DNA from: Liolophura sinensis
Lineage: Eukaryota > Mollusca > Polyplacophora > Chitonida > Chitonidae
Length of the DNA stretch: 64,000 nucleotides
Direction: 5' to 3'
NCBI RefSeq assembly: GCF_032854445.1
Contig: NC_088301.1
Coordinates: 6,866,044-6,930,043 of the forward strand
The notes below the pieces were generated by a model. It was given only the letters and a program-made list of their open reading frames with translations. It did not search any database and was not told where the DNA came from. The translations under genes were made by a program, and so were the position numbers. The first letter of the stretch is position 1. Each line of letters opens with the position of its first letter. Below, in pieces: positions 47,201 through 60,800 of the stretch.

Positions 47201-49957
47201 CAGTCTAGCTTGTTCAAGCTAAGGTCCAAACTGTGACAAGTTTCAGTTAATCCAAGCTAGTTTTAAACTCAAGTCATACAGCAAAATGTTTATTCCAATC
47301 TAAGTTCACATAAGTCACACAACAGCAAACCGAAATGAGCCCGTCTTGTTTTTTCAACTTATTAATTCAGACTTTGGAACATTGTTAGAAAATTAATGTG
47401 TTTGATGCAGACTTGACATCGGATTGTGTGTTTGCAGCTCTGGGGGACCATCAGCATGTTAAAGACGAAATTGGGATTGTAAGGGATGAGTCTAATAGTG
47501 AAACTCACTGAATTTTTGTTTTCATTGACATGACTTTAAAAATGTGATGCTCTTTGCTAGGCTAATGAAGACTGTGATGGGTCAGAGGTTAAGGATGATG
47601 AAGGGGAGGACCAATAATTCATCCAGGACACCCACAATAGAAGTTAGGTAAGGGTTTGTCTAGATGATACCCACGTGACAGTGATTGTAGTTTTATGGTA
47701 GAAAAGTTAATGTATTTTATAGGTAGAAACTTTAATGGCTTTTTTAGGTAGAAACCTTAATGGCTTTTTGGGTAGAAAAGTTAATGACTTTTTTTGATAG
47801 AATAGTTGATGAAATATCTTTGGCATTTCTGTTTGACAGTGATCAACCAGGTGACCAGGTGACTGCTGCCACTGAACAGGTACGATAATTAATCATCACA
47901 AGTGATCTTTGTATTAAAGTTTGTTTACCAAGGATTCATACAAATACGATTGCTTACTAAAATGCCTTTTTTTCTTAACTTGACTTTTTGCCATATTTTA
48001 TTACCAGTAACCTTTTTACAGATATACAGTGTATTCTGTTTCACATGTTGCATTTCTGTCACAGAGCTGTAGCTGCTTGAACTACTCATAACTGTACTTA
48101 TTTCACGATATAGTCCATCACTAAATAAAAAGGCAAACAAACCATTGCCCCACATATTGGAGCGTAAACTTACAGCCATTTCAAAATTTCCAATATTGAA
48201 AATTTCTGTCTTGAAAGTATACATTAGTGAGTTTACTCTGTTGCATAGTCAGGTTATCAGAAAAAACTTCCCACCTATATATGTATACGGTAGTAAGAAT
48301 GGATGTCTATGAATCCCTGGCTCACATCGTGCACAAAGTAGAGTGGACCTACATGTACATGTATTTCAATTGCTGATGTTGTCCAACAGCCCTGACCAGT
48401 AACATTGTCCCCTATTTTAAGTGAAATTTGTGTTTTAATGACCAATCAAATATAAAACTGTCTAATAAAGCTCTGTGTCTTGGGCATTACTTAGTGAAAT
48501 TAATTTTAGGGTGTATGAAGCTGGTTAAGCCAGATTAAGTCAAGCATCTGGTGAGACATAGTGGTTTCTGTTACATTCTGCTGGATTGCATCCAAGAAAT
48601 AAAATTGAAACCTGTGGTCTTATAACCAAAATTTATTATTATGTATTTAAGTCTGTATAAATTATATTCTAACCAAGAAAACTGGTATGAGTGATATCAA
48701 TCCAGATGTTTTTTTGCAGGTTAAACAGAATGGTGGACCAGCATTGGAAGAAGTGTTCTCAGATCAGAGTGAGTGTACCACTGAGCCAGAGCCCACTCCA
48801 GAAATAGCTCCTTCATCTGCTGATGAAAACAGCAGTGTGTATCTGGAAAAACAAGGAGGCAAGAAGAGTAACAAGACCAGCGACACAAGTACAGAGGTGA
48901 GTGTTGCAAAACTTGAAGGCGGGAGGCGTGACAAGTCCTGGTTCAATATGAACTACCTACCTCAATCATTTTGCATAAGAAAGAGCAATCTTCAGTGCAA
49001 TTTATGCACATTTATTATTAGATTTTGGAGACAAAACTCCATTGGTTGGACGGGCCAATTTCAGGGCTTTAGAAAAAAAATAACTTTATCAGTCTGTACA
49101 AAATAATGCCTTCAGAATAAACTTGAACAAACACCTTGCCAACATGCGAAACGGTCAAAGAGTTGCAGTAGTGACACAGCATAAAGAACCTTCAGCTAGG
49201 GTTGTTTGTTCTCACTTACTCTTAGGTCATCCAATGACTGCTCTTTTCTAGAGGGCCCAAACCCAAGCATGCGTTATCATCATCCAAGTACAAAAATGAC
49301 GCGAAGAGCAGAAATTCTTTTTAAAAGGGACAAACAGCTGGAAATAGGTTTCACTTCGAATCTTTGATGCAGTAAAAGTAGGGGGAGTGCCTACAGTGTA
49401 ATTTACATGATCTGATTTGAGTAAGATTGCATTGTAACATTGTGTGAAATCATGCTGCGGCACACCTCGTCCATCTAATGACATTGTGTGAAATCATGCT
49501 ATGGCACACTTTGTACATCTAATCACATTGTGTGAAATCATGCTATGGCACACCTCGTACATCTAATCACGTTGTGTGAAATCATGCTCCGGCACACCTC
49601 GTACATCTAATGACATTGTGTGAAATCATGCTACGGCACACCTCGTACATCTAGTCACATTGTGTGAAATCATGCTACAGCACACCTAGTACATCTAATC
49701 ACGTTGTGTGAAATCATGCTATGGCACACCTCGTACATCTAATCACATTGTTGTCCTGTTGTTTTTTTTTTCTCTTTCAGAATGTCAAGACACCTCAGAT
49801 CTGCAATGTCTGCCATAAAGAATTCCCTACAAGGAACAAACTGTTCCAGCATGTGAAGGCAGAAGGCCATGCATTACACGTTCCTCCACAGATGGTTAGT
49901 TCAGCAGACAAATCTGGCAGCAAGAAGAAAGGGCGGAGGAAAGGCAAACATATATAG
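35282..49957 (+). CDS. DNAJC21: DnaJ homolog subfamily C member 21, with apparent frame disruptions
   Basis: Exons: 35282-35390, 37225-37353, 40506-40599, 40944-41064, 41694-41867, 43192-43242, 44079-44158, 44487-44602, 46135-46222, 46479-46640, 46957-47002, 47561-47647, 47840-47879, 48720-48896 and 49781-49957 (TAG). The J domain (residues 1-70) has HPD at 35-37. A first C2H2 finger (CVAC...HERSKKH) spans exons 9-10 and a second (CNVC...HVKAEGH) is in the last exon; acidic and KKRRK linkers match the family. Human protein: 531 residues; here about 549. The family (yeast Jjj1) helps recycle 60S export factors with Hsp70. Met5 at 35294 is the start that aligns with human. Oddities: exons 3-4 carry two mutually compensating shifts, and exon 12 has an in-frame TAA at 47615-47617 unless a downstream acceptor (47571) is used. 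Confidence 0.93.
35535..35650 (+). repeat. Short tandem repeat, 23 bp, about four copies
   Basis: Unit TGTGTTTGGATATTGTTACT plus TTT, in DNAJC21 intron 1. Confidence 0.85.
35795..35905 (+). repeat. Short tandem repeat, about 29 bp, four copies
   Basis: Unit TTTCTAACTCTCATCTCTTC plus CCACAAAGA, in DNAJC21 intron 1. Confidence 0.85.
38010..40490 (+). repeat. 42-50-bp minisatellite ending at a DNAJC21 splice acceptor
   Basis: About 45 copies of a unit starting ATCACCAATCAATCA and ending TAACTGTTATATATTGACAG. Length changes come from the number of AATC steps. The array runs to within about 15 bp of the acceptor of exon 3 (40506), and the real acceptor region AGTGTAACTGTGTTTTATTG-GGCAG is itself a diverged unit end. 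A family B SINE interrupts it at 38612-38942. Confidence 0.97.
38612..38942 (-). mobile_element. tRNA-derived SINE, family B (copy 2), inserted in the minisatellite
   Basis: Starts GTGAGTGAGTGCTTGAG and carries 'CAACAATTTTTCAGTCATAT' and 'TGATACGGGTCAACCAGTCG'. Flanked on both sides by GTTATATATTGA, which could be a target-site duplication or simply the array unit. Confidence 0.85.
41148..41392 (+). mobile_element. tRNA-derived SINE, family D
   Basis: Head 'CTGGCTCAGATGGTTAAGG' with B box 'TTGTTCAAACTC', body 'GACCTGCCAAAGGCTAGTGG' and 'CCTTACTGCCATCATGTTAG', and tail AAGTAAATAAATGA. It starts about 84 bp after the DNAJC21 exon ending at 41064. Confidence 0.85.
42340..42880 (+). repeat. About 61-bp tandem repeat in DNAJC21 intron
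   Basis: About eight copies of a unit containing TAATGTCTCAATACTCTGTC, TAGTCATGATAATGTCTTGT and CACTACTGTGTCTCTTCACTG. Confidence 0.9.
44810..44990 (-). mobile_element. MetaSINE-like element, head truncated
   Basis: A T-run, then 'GATTGGTGTTTTACGCCATA', 'GACGGCGGCCAGCATTATGG', 'CCGCAGGTTGCTGGCAGACC' and 'ACGGCCGGAGAGGAAGCCAG'. It stops before the tRNA-like head. Confidence 0.9.
49420..49752 (+). repeat. 44-bp minisatellite beside the last DNAJC21 exon
   Basis: About seven copies of a unit with CACATTGTGTGAAATCATGC and GGCACACCTCGTACATCTAAT. It ends about 30 bp before the acceptor of the exon at 49781, leaving only the polypyrimidine tract between. Confidence 0.95.
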
Positions 49958-51352: not shown

Positions 51353-54300
51353 TCATCTGCCCTGTGAACTATCCAAGATGTCGTCATCCAGCATTACCAG
51401 TCCAAGTTTTCCCTCTCGAAAGGCTCTCAGCACAATCCCAGCAGCAGCATCAAAATGAGGGCGATACACATAACCTAAAACAACAGGCGAGATGTTCAAG
51501 GTGTAACACTTGGGTGAAACGTTTTAGTCACAGTCAGATGCATCAAACCTTTGTTTACTTGTTAATTTCTTTGATTGAAATTTAATGTCGCTTTCAACAT
51601 CATTTCGGTGACATCACGACAGTGTCTCCTTTGTAATATTCCAAACCAAATGCCAACATATTTATTATAGTGCTGTTTAATGAAGCAACAGGGCCTAGAC
51701 ACGACACGCCACCCAGACACATTATACAGACACCAGGCTGACCAGTACTTGGTCTATTCCTCTTCTCTTCAGTGCACAAGCCAGTACCAAGATTACCAAT
51801 GTTCAAGTCTTAGTGGCACCAAGGACTGTCACCATTTCTAATGCACAGTGACATACTCAACACTACAAGTGGCTTATTCACAGCGTCCAGTTAAAAGTTT
51901 ACAGCACAACATATTAACTGTCCGCATGTGGCAAAATCTTACCTGTTTGACTTCCTGGGGATCGTAATTTGACTGCTTTGTTGTTTTTGAGGGCAACATG
52001 GGCCAGCAATTTCAAAACGTCGTCTGTCGGATCTTCCAGTCCAAAATACTTCACGTAGCTGCAAAATATAGTGTTTATGAATCTGGTAGAATCTTGTCTG
52101 TATGGCATTGTCTGCTTTATACAAGAGATCAGAAAGATGTTTTAAGTGGAACTCATGCCATGGACAGCCAATGAGAGATCACTGATACCACATGTATATG
52201 GTGTTGTTACTTCAAACTTACTTTGTTACACTTTTTTGTCACTCTGGATGCCTGGTTCCATTCCATCCATTCTACATACATATACATGCAGATAATATAA
52301 TACAAATGTATCATTTTGTCAAGTACACAAATACACATTAACCTTACATAAAAAGTGTATGAAAGATAGCAAATTTCTGCTCATACTTCCTTTTGTACTC
52401 TTATATGTACCTACATCTCTCAACAAATGTGTCACCCTTCCCATGAACTGTGTCACTCTCCGTGTCAAACTCCAATCCTATTCACACCAAATTCAAGAAG
52501 TCTCAACGCACCCAGGAGCTGTGTCACATAAACTTGCCCTATTAGCTGTTACCCCCTGTGTCACACCACACCCATCAACTGTGTCACACCATACCTGTCC
52601 CGTTAATTGTGTCACCCCCAACTGTGTCACGTCATGTTCGACAACTGTCATACCACACCAATCAATTGTTATAACACATCCATCCATTGTCACACCCCAT
52701 CCATCAACTGTGGCTCACTCTTGGAATGTCACACCACAACAATCAACTGTGTCACACTATACCCATCAAGTGTTGCCCCACACTCTTGGAATGTCACACC
52801 ACAACAATCAACTATGTCACACTATACCCATCAAGTGTTGCCCCACACTCTTTGAATGTCACACCACCACAATCAATTGTGTCACACTAAACCCATCAAG
52901 TGTCACTCACACTCTTGGAATGTCACACCACACCCATCAACTGTGTCACACTATATCCATCAAGTGTGGCTCATACTCTTGGAATGTCACACCACAACAA
53001 TCAACTGTGTCACACTAAACCCATCAAGTCTGGATCACACTCTTGGAATGTCACACCACAACAATCAACTGAGTCACACTATGCCCATCAGTCTGGCTCA
53101 CACTCTTGGAATGTCACACCACCCCACAATCAATTGTGTCACACTATACCCATCAAGTGTCACTCACACTCTTGGAATGTCACACCACAACAATCAACTG
53201 AGTCACACTATGCCCATCAGTCCGGCTCACACTCTTGGAATGTCACCACAACAATCAACTGTGTCACACTATACCCATCAACTGTGGCCCACACTCTTGG
53301 AATGTCACACCACATCCATCAACTTTGTCACACCACACACAAGAAATCTGTTATGCCAACTGTCTAGTAAATGTGCCACAAAACACCAACAGTGCCAAAA
53401 TCACTGATCATCTGTGCTATATGCCTTTTCCACAGGTGGTATTGACCAGACTCGTACACTTACCTATAGTTTCCCTTTTTGTTCAGAGTGTACAACATGT
53501 AGTCAGCGATACTGTCCACTCCAACTAGATGGTCCTGTAAAGCAGCTGGAAGAACAAAGCTTCATGCTATATTACCACACTAGAAATAACTTAAATATCA
53601 CATTAAGAACCACTTTATAAAAACTATACACAAAAAATATTAAAATTATAAAAAGCTCCACCCTGCTCAAAAAAATGGCCCATACCATAATGTTTGTATG
53701 CAAATATCAGAGTGATGTGTACATATACTGTGTCTTCTTGAGGAAGGGTGAGCCCATGCCACAAAGGAAGTATCATGGCAAAGATACCAGACATGACACC
53801 CCACTCAGTCACATTATACTGACCCCCGGCAAACCAGTCCTATTTCTTTGCTCTAACCACACAGTGCTGAGCGCCATGTGAGGGAACAACAAGTACCATT
53901 TTTAAAGTCTTTGGTATGACCCTATCCTGGCTTTGATCCTTGGCCTCCTGACTTCGAGTGAGTGAGTGCTTAAGGTTTAACGTCGTACTCAACAATTTTT
54001 CAGTCATATGACGACGAAGGAATCCTTAGGGTATATGTAATGTGCCTCCTTGTTGCAGAACGGTTTTCCACCACTCTTTTATCTAGTCCTGCTTCACTGA
54101 GACGACTTACTGAAGACAAGTAAGCCGCCCCGCCTGAGCTATTATACTGATACAGGTCAATCAGTCGTTGCACTATCCCCTTCATGCTAAACACCAAGCA
54201 GGAAAGTTACAACTTCCTCTTTTAAAGTCTTGATTGATCCTGGATCTCCAGACTTCGATTTATTTATTTATTTATTTGATTGGTGTTTTACGCCGTACTA

Positions 54301-54768
54301 AAGAATATTTCACTTATACGACGGCGGCCAGCATTATGGTGGGAGGAAACTGGGCAGAGCCCGGGGGGGGGGGGGGGGGGGGAAACCCACGACCATCCGT
54401 AGGTTGTTGGCAGACCTTCCCACGTACGGCCGGAGAGAAAGCCAGCATGAGCTGGACTTGAACTCACAGCGACCGAATTGGTGAGAGACTCCTGGGTCAT
54501 TACGCTTTGCTAGCGTGCTTACCAACTGAGCCCCGGAGGACCCCACGTAAAATACCATAAAATTTATTAGTATTTCCAAGAATCATATTGACAGGGGGAC
54601 CACTTTTGTGGCCCAATGGTTAGAGTATCTGCATCAAAGTCGGGGAGGGGCCTCCGGGGCTCAGTTGGTAAGCGCGCTAGCACAGCGTAATGACCCGTCG
54701 TATAAGTGAATTATTCTTGAGTATGGCGTAAAACACCAATCAAATAAATAAATAAATTCTGTATTACA

Positions 54769-54818
<50 letters not shown>

Positions 54819-57800
54819 TATATCTAACAACAATTTTCGTAACATGGGAAGACCTGCCAGCAACCCTGTGGATGGTCATGGGCTTTTTCTGGGCACTGTC
54901 CACTTCCCTCCTATCATAATAATGCTGGGTGCCGTCATATAAGTGAAATATGAAATATTCTTGAATACTGAGTAAAACACCAACCAAATAAAAACAATAC
55001 TGCAATTTTTTCCAATAAAAGTAAAAATTCAAAATAACATCATACTTATTTTTTGTGAAATTTCCATATAGATTTAATACATAAATAGTTTCATCACTTA
55101 CCACTGAGTGCTAGCTTCATGCCCACCTCCACATTCTGTACATTTGGGGCCAGGATACCAGGTGTATCATACAGGTACATGGCCGGCTCTTCACACACCT
55201 GAAGTCATGTCAATACACATCATTAACCATATGAACTAGAGCATGGCTGTTTTACTGGGTGCTAACTTCATGCCCACCTCCACATTCTGTACATTGGGGG
55301 CCAGGATACCAGGTGTATCATACAGGTACATTGCCGGATACTCACATACCTGAAGTCATGTCAATACACATCAATAACCATATGAACTAAAGCATGGGTG
55401 TTTTATTGAGTGCTAGCTTCATGCCCACCTCCACATTCTGTACATTGGGGGCCAGGATACCAGGTGTATCATACAGGTACATTGCCGGCTCTTCACACAC
55501 CTGAAGTCATGTCAATACACATCATTAACCATATGAACTAGAGCATGGCTGTTTTACTGGGTGCTAACTTCATGCCCACCTCCACATTCTGTACATTGGG
55601 GGCCAGGATACCAGGTGTATCATACAGGTACATTGCCGGATACTCACATACCTGAAGCCATGTCAATACACATCATTAACCATATGAACTAAAGCATGGG
55701 TGTTTTATTGAGTGCTAGCTTCATGCCCACCTCCACATTCTGTACATTAGGGGCCAGAATACCAGGTGTATCATACAGGTATATGGCCAGCTCCTCACAT
55801 ACCTGAAGTCATGTCAATACACATCATTAACCATATGAACTAAAGCATGGGTGTTTTATTGAGTGCTAACTTCATGCCCACCTCCACATTCTGTACATTA
55901 GGGGACAGAATACCAGGTGTATCATACAGGTATATGGCCAGCTCCTCACATACCTGAAGTCATGTCAATACAGTTATAGGATGTATGTAGAATGCCTCGT
56001 GTGTAATTCTGCTTAATTAAATCTGATAATTTACATCACTATTCTGGAAAAATCCGCCCTTTTACTGATGAAATTCTTACCTTTATTCTTTCCAGAACAC
56101 TCCTGGTTATCCCTGCTATTCCCCCAACTCTGGTTGCTTTTCCTGTCCATAAATACAACGATATCCAGTGTAATTTATCCAGTATATTAACACAGATATT
56201 CCATAAGAGTATAATACACATTTATCCAGTATAGTCCATTGAGTAAAACACAGATATTCAGTATATTCCATCCAATATAACACAGAGATCCCAGTGTATT
56301 CCATCCATCATAACACAGAGATACCCAGTATATTCCATCCATCATAACACAGAGATATCCAGTATATTCCATCGAATAAAACATACAGATACCCAGTGTA
56401 TTCCATACAGTATAACAAACAGATATCCACTATATTTCATCCAATAAAACACAGCGATACCCAGTATATTCCATCCATTATAACACAGTGATACCCAATG
56501 TTTTCCATCTAGTATAACACACAGATATCCAGTATATTCCATCCTGTGAAACACAGAGATACCCAGTATATTCCATCCATCATAACACAGAGATACCCAG
56601 TGTATTCCATCCATCATAACACAGAGATACCCAGTGTATTCCATCCATCATAACACAGAGATACCCAGTGTATTCCATCCATCATAACACAGAGATACCC
56701 AGTGTATTCCATCCATCATAACACAGAGATACCCAGTGTATTCCATCCATCATAACACAGAGATAACCAGTATATTCCATCCATCATAACACAGAGATAT
56801 CCAGTATATTCCATCGAATAAAACACACAGATACCCAGGGTATTCCATACAGTATAACAAACAGATATCCACTATATTTCATCCAATAAAACACAGAGAT
56901 ACCCAGTATATTCCATCCATTATAACACAGTGATACCCAGTGTTTTCCATCTAGTATAACACAGGGATACCCAGTGTATTCTATCCAGTATAACACAGAG
57001 ATACCCAGTATATTCCATCCAGTATAACACACACATACCAAGTATATTCCATCCAGTATAACACACAGATACCCAGTATATTCCATCCAGTACAACACAC
57101 ACATACCAAGTATATTCCACCCTGTACAACACAGAGATACCCAGTATATTCCATCCAGTAAAACACAGAGATACCCAGTATATTCCATCCAGTATAACAG
57201 AGAGATACCCAGTATATTTCATCCAGTATAACACAGATACCCAGTATATTCCATCCAGTATAACACAGATACCCAGTACATTCCATTCAGTATAACACAA
57301 AGATACCCAATATATTCCATCCAGTACAATACAAACATACCCAATATATTCCATCCAGTGCTACACAGAGATACCCAGTATATTCCATCCAATAAAACAC
57401 TAAGATACATAGTACACTCATTCAATAAAAAAGAGATACCCAGTTTATTCCATCCAGTGCAACATACAGATACCCAGCATACTCCATCCAGTATAACACA
57501 GGGATACCCAGTGTATTCTATCCAGTATAACACAGAGATACCCAGTATATTCCATCCAGTATAACACACACATACCAAGTATATTCCATCCAGTATAACA
57601 CACAGATACCCAGTATATTCCATCCAGTACAACACACAGATACCCAGTATATTCCATCCAGTACAACACAAAGATAGCCAGTATATTCCATCCAGTACAA
57701 CACAGATATACATTGTATATTCCATCCAGTATAACACAAAGATACCAAGTATATTCCATCCAGTATAACACACAGATACCCAGTATATTCCATCCAGTAT

Positions 57801-60800
57801 AACACCCAGTATATGCCAAGTAAAGGTAACCAATATAATCCATTCTCCAAAGAAGAAACTGTGAACACACATTCCTCCAAAAAGTTCAAGACCGGCTTCA
57901 AACAAGCCATACACACATGGTTCTCAAAAACATATGCTACCAGCTCCAAAAAACAGGCATGTAGACACGCAGTCCTGATATTGTACATGGGGTACTTACC
58001 CTTCTTGAGGTGAGTCCTCCTGAGGGAATTGATCAGTGATGACTTGCCCACATTTGGTATCCCAATAATCAGCAAGTTATACTCCAGTGACTTGGGAAAT
58101 ATAAAACATACCACTGATTCTTCATATAACATATAATAAGTAACTTCATTTGTGGCAAAAAATGTAGAAAGATTTAAGAGAAACCGAAGTCAACTCGCCA
58201 GCTGGAGTTGTCATCATAGTGTACATGACTTAAAAACTAAAACAGGGTTTTGTACCATTCAGTTTACAGGCTGAACAAAAAAACTTTAACACTGACACTA
58301 CCACCAACACTTCCTTAACATGAAGACTGATAAAAACTTTGCATCACATCATAACTACAAACAGCAGAAAGAAGGCTATGTTTTCATTCCCTGAAAATAA
58401 TCAACATTTTGCGTCCACAATCTGTGCTGTGTTATCAGTGTGTTTCTCTTAATGATTAGCTTCAGCATTTAGATTACTCACTTAAGTGACTCATTTTACC
58501 GGATTCTGAGTGTTCAGCTCATAGTGTTAGTTGTTTGGAGGTTAGCTTGGAAGGTGGGATCAGACTGACAAAACAGTACTCTGATCACTGAGAGGAACAA
58601 CTGAACACCTTTATTTGTCTCTAAAAGGGCAATTCTTGGGACAATTTTCAAGTCCGTTTTCACAGTAATGATGATGTCAATGCTAAGACCAAAGACGGCA
58701 TCCAGGTATTATAATCTTACCTCTTCTCTGTGGTAACGGGACCTAGAGCCAATTAGGTCCTTTATCTTTGGTATCAGCTGAACAGAAAGCAGAAATCATG
58801 TAAATTCAATTAATTTTAGTTATTTTTTCTTATTTTACTAGTTTTATATATTAAATACATTGAAAGTACATATCTTTATCTTTGAAATAAAATCTTTGAA
58901 ATCAACTGAAAGCGTAAGTCATGCACACGTATACAGATTTATTTCTTTTTCTAATCTGACACGTTTTAAATAATCACATATTTAATACGCATTTTACAAG
59001 TTTTTAAAAATGACTAACCTGTACAGAGGATCGGAGCTATTAATAATGCAAAAGTCTGACTACCACCGCAGAGATGACAGCGTGATCTAACTTAGCACAG
59101 AGTTTTCTTCTACCTGACTTTTGTCCTGAATAGAGAAAGTACTGGACACTAACACTGATATCATCCCTGTACAACTTCCATGTATCTGAGAAATGGTTGA
59201 ACATTACAGGGGAAAAGCATGGGTACATGTATATCATTCAATAACAATGTCTGTTTTCTGGGACTGCCTTTCAAGGTACTGTACAATTACTCATCACTAC
59301 TATTGTATTCTGCTCATACTTCACTTAAAATACCCTCTCTCCAACTGAAATCTGCCATATTTCCTCGTTTTAGACTTTGACTGCTGCTGGATCCCCCCAA
59401 TTTTGCAATCACTCATCCTTTAGCTTTTTGTCCATTAGCTTACGAGCAGGACAGCTACAGCACTGTACATATATCTTTGCCATACCTTCTTCTTGACAAC
59501 GGTGTTAGTTTGCTCCTTGCAGTTTGTGTAGACTACTGAGTTAACTCCTTGTTGCTGGAGCAGCTCTTCTACCTTGTCCTGCCGAGTCATATCTGCCAAA
59601 TCCACCTTGTTTAGTACCAGCAGGTGCGGGCGCAGCATCAGCGCATTACGGAAGTTGGGATTACGTCCAGAAAATGGTATCTGATATCCCAATAAAGGAA
59701 AATTATCTGAAGGTTTTTCATACAGCCCACCCCTCACCATAAAGCTGGCCGCCGTCATATAAGTGAAATTTTCTTGGGTAAGGGGGAAAACACCAATCAA
59801 ATAAATAAATAAATACATAACTGAATCCTGCCCATATTTAGTAGATTTCCCCATTCTCACTGCTTGTGGACCTTGTGACAATGCTGATGTGGCAGCTAAT
59901 TCCTCAACCTTTTCACATATGAAAGACTAACTTTCAGTGAGCTTTCTGCTCCTTTTTACTTTGCTTTTGGAGACAAAACTACATTGGCTAGGTTGACCAA
60001 TTTAAAGACTTTACAAAAAGTGTAATTTTATCAATCTGTGCAGAATAATGTTCTAAGAATATACTTGAATAAACACCAAATGTGCAAAAGGTTGAAGAAT
60101 TACAATAAGTAAAAAATTCTTGAGTATGGGATTCTGAAAAAAATAAATTACTGCAGACTATATAGGAATCATATACTTGCGTTGACTGGTATTTAAACAG
60201 AAACAGCAGTGTGTGGAATAAACCACTGGCCACTGGCAAGTAGCTGTCGAGTATTCACTTATGCATGGAATGATCCCAATCACAGCCACGTGTGTATCAT
60301 ACTTATAAAAGGAAAATGTCACAAACTCCATGTAGCAACACTAATACACAACACTCAAACCACTGATTACTACCACCAAGGTCCCAAGCCATCGGAGAGT
60401 AGCACTTTGTGGCAAAAATTTGATGGTGCAACTTCCCAATATGTTATATCTTGACAACATGACCTGTCAACATTTCTTAATATTTACAAGAATAGCTCAA
60501 ATTCTTGCCTTCTAGTAAACATCAGACTGGTACTTGTACTATTTGTAGTGTTAACATGATTCTAAAGTTAAAAACAAATATGTTGCCACCCTCTACACAT
60601 TATAAAATCTTTACTACTGATTTTGCAAAACAATAACACATGCACAGATGAGGGTGATATTTTGTGAAAGGCAATTATTTCAGCTACATGTGTAGATGTA
60701 AGGGTACTGAAGCATGACTTATATAAGACCGGTCAGCCATGAGTTGTCCCACTTTGACCAGCACCAGTTTACCCTAATAATTCAGGACAGATAATATTAG

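Follow-up and report, generated by a model that had tools for sequence, protein, structure and literature searches.

Six tandem copies of the G3-encoding exon, each opening with a putative dual-specific splice site, in the MTG1 gene of the chiton Liolophura sinensis

Tandem exon duplication is a known phenomenon, and so is the presence of dual-specific splice sites within repeats. The human genome contains thousands of unannotated intronic exon copies, some of which are expressed (PMC9013439). Introns that lie within tandem repeats are enriched in dual-specific AGGT sites, and it has been proposed that expansions of such repeats are tolerated since they are spliced out via AGGT (PMC10809524). 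In recursive splicing full removal is promoted where the ratchet donor exceeds the exon donor in strength, though donor strength alone is not decisive (PMC8605326); in human introns of <1 kb conventional lariats are commoner than recursive ones (PMC10156609). Spliced aligners are prone to report phantom introns between repeats, for which reason reads from such loci call for repeat-aware mapping (PMC10632439). The literature collection searched contained no publication on an MTG1 exon duplication. The array which we describe here, in a window of 64,000 nucleotides to which all positions refer, is a new and clean tandem exon duplication in which each unit opens with a site of the dual-specific type.

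TRF reports a repeat at 55103-55972 with a period of 151, 5.8 copies, 93% match and 0% indels. On the minus strand (55972-55102) this corresponds to six head-to-tail units of 151 bp, without indels, located inside MTG1, a gene for a GTPase of the mitochondrial ribosome. The six acceptors, which read TTCAG/GTRTGTGA (R being A or G, and the slash marking the junction), lie at 55953, 55802, 55651, 55500, 55349 and 55198, with a spacing of exactly 151. Downstream of each, the reading frame encodes VCE-x-x-A-x-YLYDTPGIL-x-PNVQNVEVGMKLA, the G3 motif (DTPG) within YLYDTPGIL being encoded by all six copies. A sequence-only reading of this DNA had described six copies of the G3 exon with an exact 151-bp period and their own acceptors, and the TRF result, the acceptor positions and the shared peptide confirm it. 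The locus is a tandem exon duplication in the usual sense, that is, at least two homologous exon copies arranged in tandem within one gene.

The 151-bp unit comprises the 3'-terminal 19 nt of the upstream intron, approximately 95 nt of exon and a spacer of some 36-37 nt which replaces the donor. In the direction of transcription (all features are on the minus strand) the array is preceded by a 62-nt MTG1 exon (KATRVGGIAGITRSVLERIK; 56081-56142) ending in phase 0 at the donor AAG/GTAAGA. The 5' limit of the array is the 19-nt acceptor-side piece of the intron (TGTATTGACATGACTTCAG; 55954-55972) that is common to all units. Copy 1 (55803-55953) has an exon-like body without an exon-end donor, as have copy 2 (55652-55802), which belongs to the lineage of copy 1, copy 3 (55501-55651), which represents a B lineage (GAGTATCCG, CCCAGTAAAACAG), and copy 4 (55350-55500), whose exon body resembles that of copy 6. 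Copy 5 (55199-55349) is again of the B lineage and is identical to copy 3 in exon body and spacer. Only copy 6, the functional 97-nt exon (VCEEPAMYLYDTPGILAPNVQNVEVGMKLALS; 55102-55198), which is transcribed last, possesses the exon-end donor GTG/GTAAGT, at exon end 55102. The downstream MTG1 exon (ALQDHLVGVDSIADYMLYTLNKKGNYR; 53465-53545) has the acceptor CTTTGTTCTTCCAG and a phase that fits copy 6. Copies 1-5 read through into the spacer and meet an in-frame TAG a few codons beyond the position of the lost donor, as had been claimed for the five upstream copies.

The peptide encoded by the upstream exon, copy 6 and the downstream exon matches solved MTG1 chains with an E value of 1.8e-26, and the YlqF model at 2e-11, which for such a fragment falls under the curated cut-off of the model. 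Pfam gave no match to the 80-aa MTG1 piece alone; when extended by the P-loop exon the piece matched MMR_HSR1 at 1.4e-13. On the solved-chain and MMR_HSR1 matches the original assignment to MTG1 stands and, related to solved MTG1 and carrying G1 and G3 motifs, the product is a member of the MTG1/YlqF-type GTPases. Copy 6 runs from phase 0 to 1, and its frame enters the next exon to give LALS-AALQDHLVG, the counterpart of LALCGTVLDHLVG in the matched MTG1 chains; no other copy fits the reading frame of both adjacent exons. The other MTG1 exons found on the minus strand are intact and in order. With its exon-end donor and its fit to the frames of both neighbours, copy 6 still allows normal MTG1 to be produced. 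As the exon is 97 nt in length, an mRNA that included it twice in full would be frameshifted.

In every copy the hexamer immediately after the acceptor AG is GTATGT or GTGTGT (AG/GTRTGT). Scored with generic consensus matrices, which are not species-specific, these six AG/GT sites reach 9.8-10.4 as donors, compared to 10.2 for the donor of the upstream exon and 9.6 for that of copy 6, and the six acceptors score alike (4.2-4.9). The array possesses the motif part of a dual-specific or ratchet array, namely an AG/GT with a good donor score in each unit. Each copy also contains, 72 nt in, the internal site GAG/GTGGGC, whose score is 9.5 when background is taken into account and, by plain consensus, approximately 2 bits under that of the true donor. 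The claim of a single working donor is correct for the exon end, but donor-like sites do occur in copies 1-5. Across 448 kb of strand sequence a strong AG/GT follows 64 of 3838 passable acceptors, and most of these 64 lie in tandem arrays; outside arrays such ratchet-like sites occur at a low background rate. Another array elsewhere in the genome, of 5.5 kb and 87-bp units (L025:3978-9522), carries the ratchet-like motif CCCTCAG/GTGTGT in about 40 copies.

The locus shares with described tandem exon duplications the head-to-tail copies of one exon within a gene; those involve whole exons with intact sites, whereas in MTG1 the exon-end donor is missing from five of the six copies and the array is minisatellite-like with an exact period (PMC9013439). 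With UBC and VCX3A it has in common an AGGT in each repeat unit, such that AGGT-to-AGGT introns are exact multiples of the unit. Unlike in those genes the unit (151 bp) is not a multiple of 3 and contains a fragment of an exon of a single-copy gene rather than a protein repeat, and its AGGT use is predicted (PMC10809524). Ratchet points and RS-exons offer a further parallel, in that an acceptor is followed by a strong donor recreated at the junction, with the exon-side donor weaker or absent. In MTG1, by comparison, the intron is short (882 nt), the several putative ratchet sites are consecutive and of common descent, and the polypyrimidine tract is weak (PMC8605326).

DNA and protein searches of the 609-Mb assembly revealed neither a second site of the G3 exon nor a paralogous MTG1. 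The spacer occurs nowhere in the genome outside the array, and its resemblance to the two intron flanks is no better than chance (P 0.28 and 0.38). Tandem repeats with a period of ≥10 make up 19.8% of a 160-kb sample drawn from 16 places, and in the 64-kb window they account for 15.8%. Since they are ordinary in this genome, an array which catches the edge of an exon is not surprising. The flanking MTG1 introns contain two minisatellite arrays with periods of 64 and 34 bp (52642-53333 and 56196-57805), that at 56196-57805 stopping about 55 nt short of an exon. Two opposed tRNA-like elements (GGGGCTCAGTTGGTAAGC...) with GGTGTTTTACGCC tails, a G run and a nearby (TA)22 tract are found in an MTG1 intron at 54260-54720, and resemble SINE insertions. 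On the plus strand a 44-bp repeat array (49437-49957) lies just before an exon encoding a C2H2 zinc finger, which resembles the C-terminus of DNAJC21 and in searches matched only generic zinc fingers.

When exon body and spacer are compared, the copies form the lineages {1,2} and {3,5}, to which {4,6} can be added for the exon body. Three sites distinguish copies 1 and 2, and the most divergent upstream copies differ at 13 of 131 compared positions. Alternation of variants, as proposed earlier, is partial; the recent homogenisation proposed with it is supported. The identity of copies 3 and 5 and the near-identity of 1 and 2 match expectation for repeated duplication. The simplest history would involve an ancestral array of three units, a 151-bp duplication (1/2) and a 302-bp duplication (3-4/5-6). 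Amino acid variants between copies are E/Y, P/L, M/I and A/S. Of the differences between copies 7 are synonymous and 6 nonsynonymous, where 9.3 nonsynonymous would be expected (P=0.046). This weak sign of coding constraint counts against the neutral reading preferred below, but it may stem from an earlier spell of a copy in the functional position, or from exchange with that position, and not from use of the extra copies.

We regard the array as probably a tolerated intragenic expansion of a tandem repeat that captured one exon, with ordinary MTG1 still being made; the mature mRNA is likewise expected to carry only copy 6. The 151-bp unit would have been multiplied through unequal exchange or slippage, and copies 1-5 would leave as intron, either in a single 882-nt step or in steps of 151 nt via AG/GTRTGT. 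Splicing from AG/GT to AG/GT would excise exact multiples of 151 nt and leave only copy 6 in a scarless mRNA. Each step would recreate at the joint a good donor, AAG/GTATGT, for the next acceptor, and the stepwise process would end at copy 6. Initial use of copy 1 is plausible, since its acceptor resembles that of copy 6 and no more than 127 nt separate it from the upstream donor. Both routes would yield identical mRNA, and the array is probably neutral. Ratcheting as a substantial route of removal is a tentative suggestion, against which the predominance of conventional removal in short human introns has to be set. It is possible, if somewhat doubtful, that this is a self-erasing duplication, in which six near-identical AG/GTRTGT sites let the spliceosome ratchet to the same mRNA at any copy number. 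The view that the five copies must be skipped or act as poison exons is not established, having overlooked this scarless removal as well as an in-frame cassette of 72 nt. As ratcheting leaves no upstream-acceptor junctions in mature mRNA, their absence from poly(A) RNA would not prove the acceptors inert.

Alternatively, splicing of some transcripts into copies 1-5 might yield a truncated MTG1 and lower output, either through decay after read-through to TAG or through cleavage at AATAAA. The in-frame TAG in each upstream copy is compatible with this, as are the acceptor of copy 1, equal in strength to that of copy 6 and nearest to the upstream donor, and, in copies 1, 2 and 4 (55860, 55709 and 55407), the AATAAA ahead of a GT-rich stretch. 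However, copies 3 and 5 have AGTAAA instead and, with 80 AATAAA on the minus strand of the window, a single ancestral occurrence is unremarkable. We consider such an array of poison or terminal exons unlikely; nothing favours the suggested tuning of MTG1 output, and a regulatory role of the array is not supported. Use of the internal GAG/GTGGGC would instead create 72-nt exons of phase 0-0, so that MTG1 could gain 0-5 additional switch II segments, each 24 aa in length. No copy lacks the site, the 72-nt pieces contain no stop and keep the phase, and the mild synonymous bias points the same way. This outcome is nevertheless quite improbable: the site is weaker than the true donor, normal MTG1 would require that copy 6's own GAG/GTGGGC be ignored, and a repeated switch II would likely break the GTPase.

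Homologous tandem exons with amino acid variants also recall a mutually exclusive cluster that selects among variant switch II exons. In such a cluster every copy has an acceptor and a donor and fits both neighbours in frame; here only copy 6 has a frame-keeping donor into the next exon. Docking/selector RNA structure was considered and rejected, the array folding less stably than shuffles (z +2.5), and selection of this type is hardly credible. Misassembly that expanded one copy would account for the identity of copies 3 and 5 across 144 compared bases (exon body and spacer). Most copies differ, at up to 13 sites and without indels, and the 0.9-kb array sits within a 60-Mb contig; since the copies differ among themselves, an artefact is very unlikely.

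If the proposed ratcheting over AG/GTRTGT is false, the array amounts to a decayed exon duplication of an ordinary kind, in a genome rich in repeats. If it is true, it would explain the harmless persistence and growth of a non-triplet duplication of a core GTPase exon, and the locus would provide a natural test system for dual-specific sites in tandem repeats, with a splice choice that ends at the last copy. Splicing would then neutralise a tandem exon duplication whatever its copy number.
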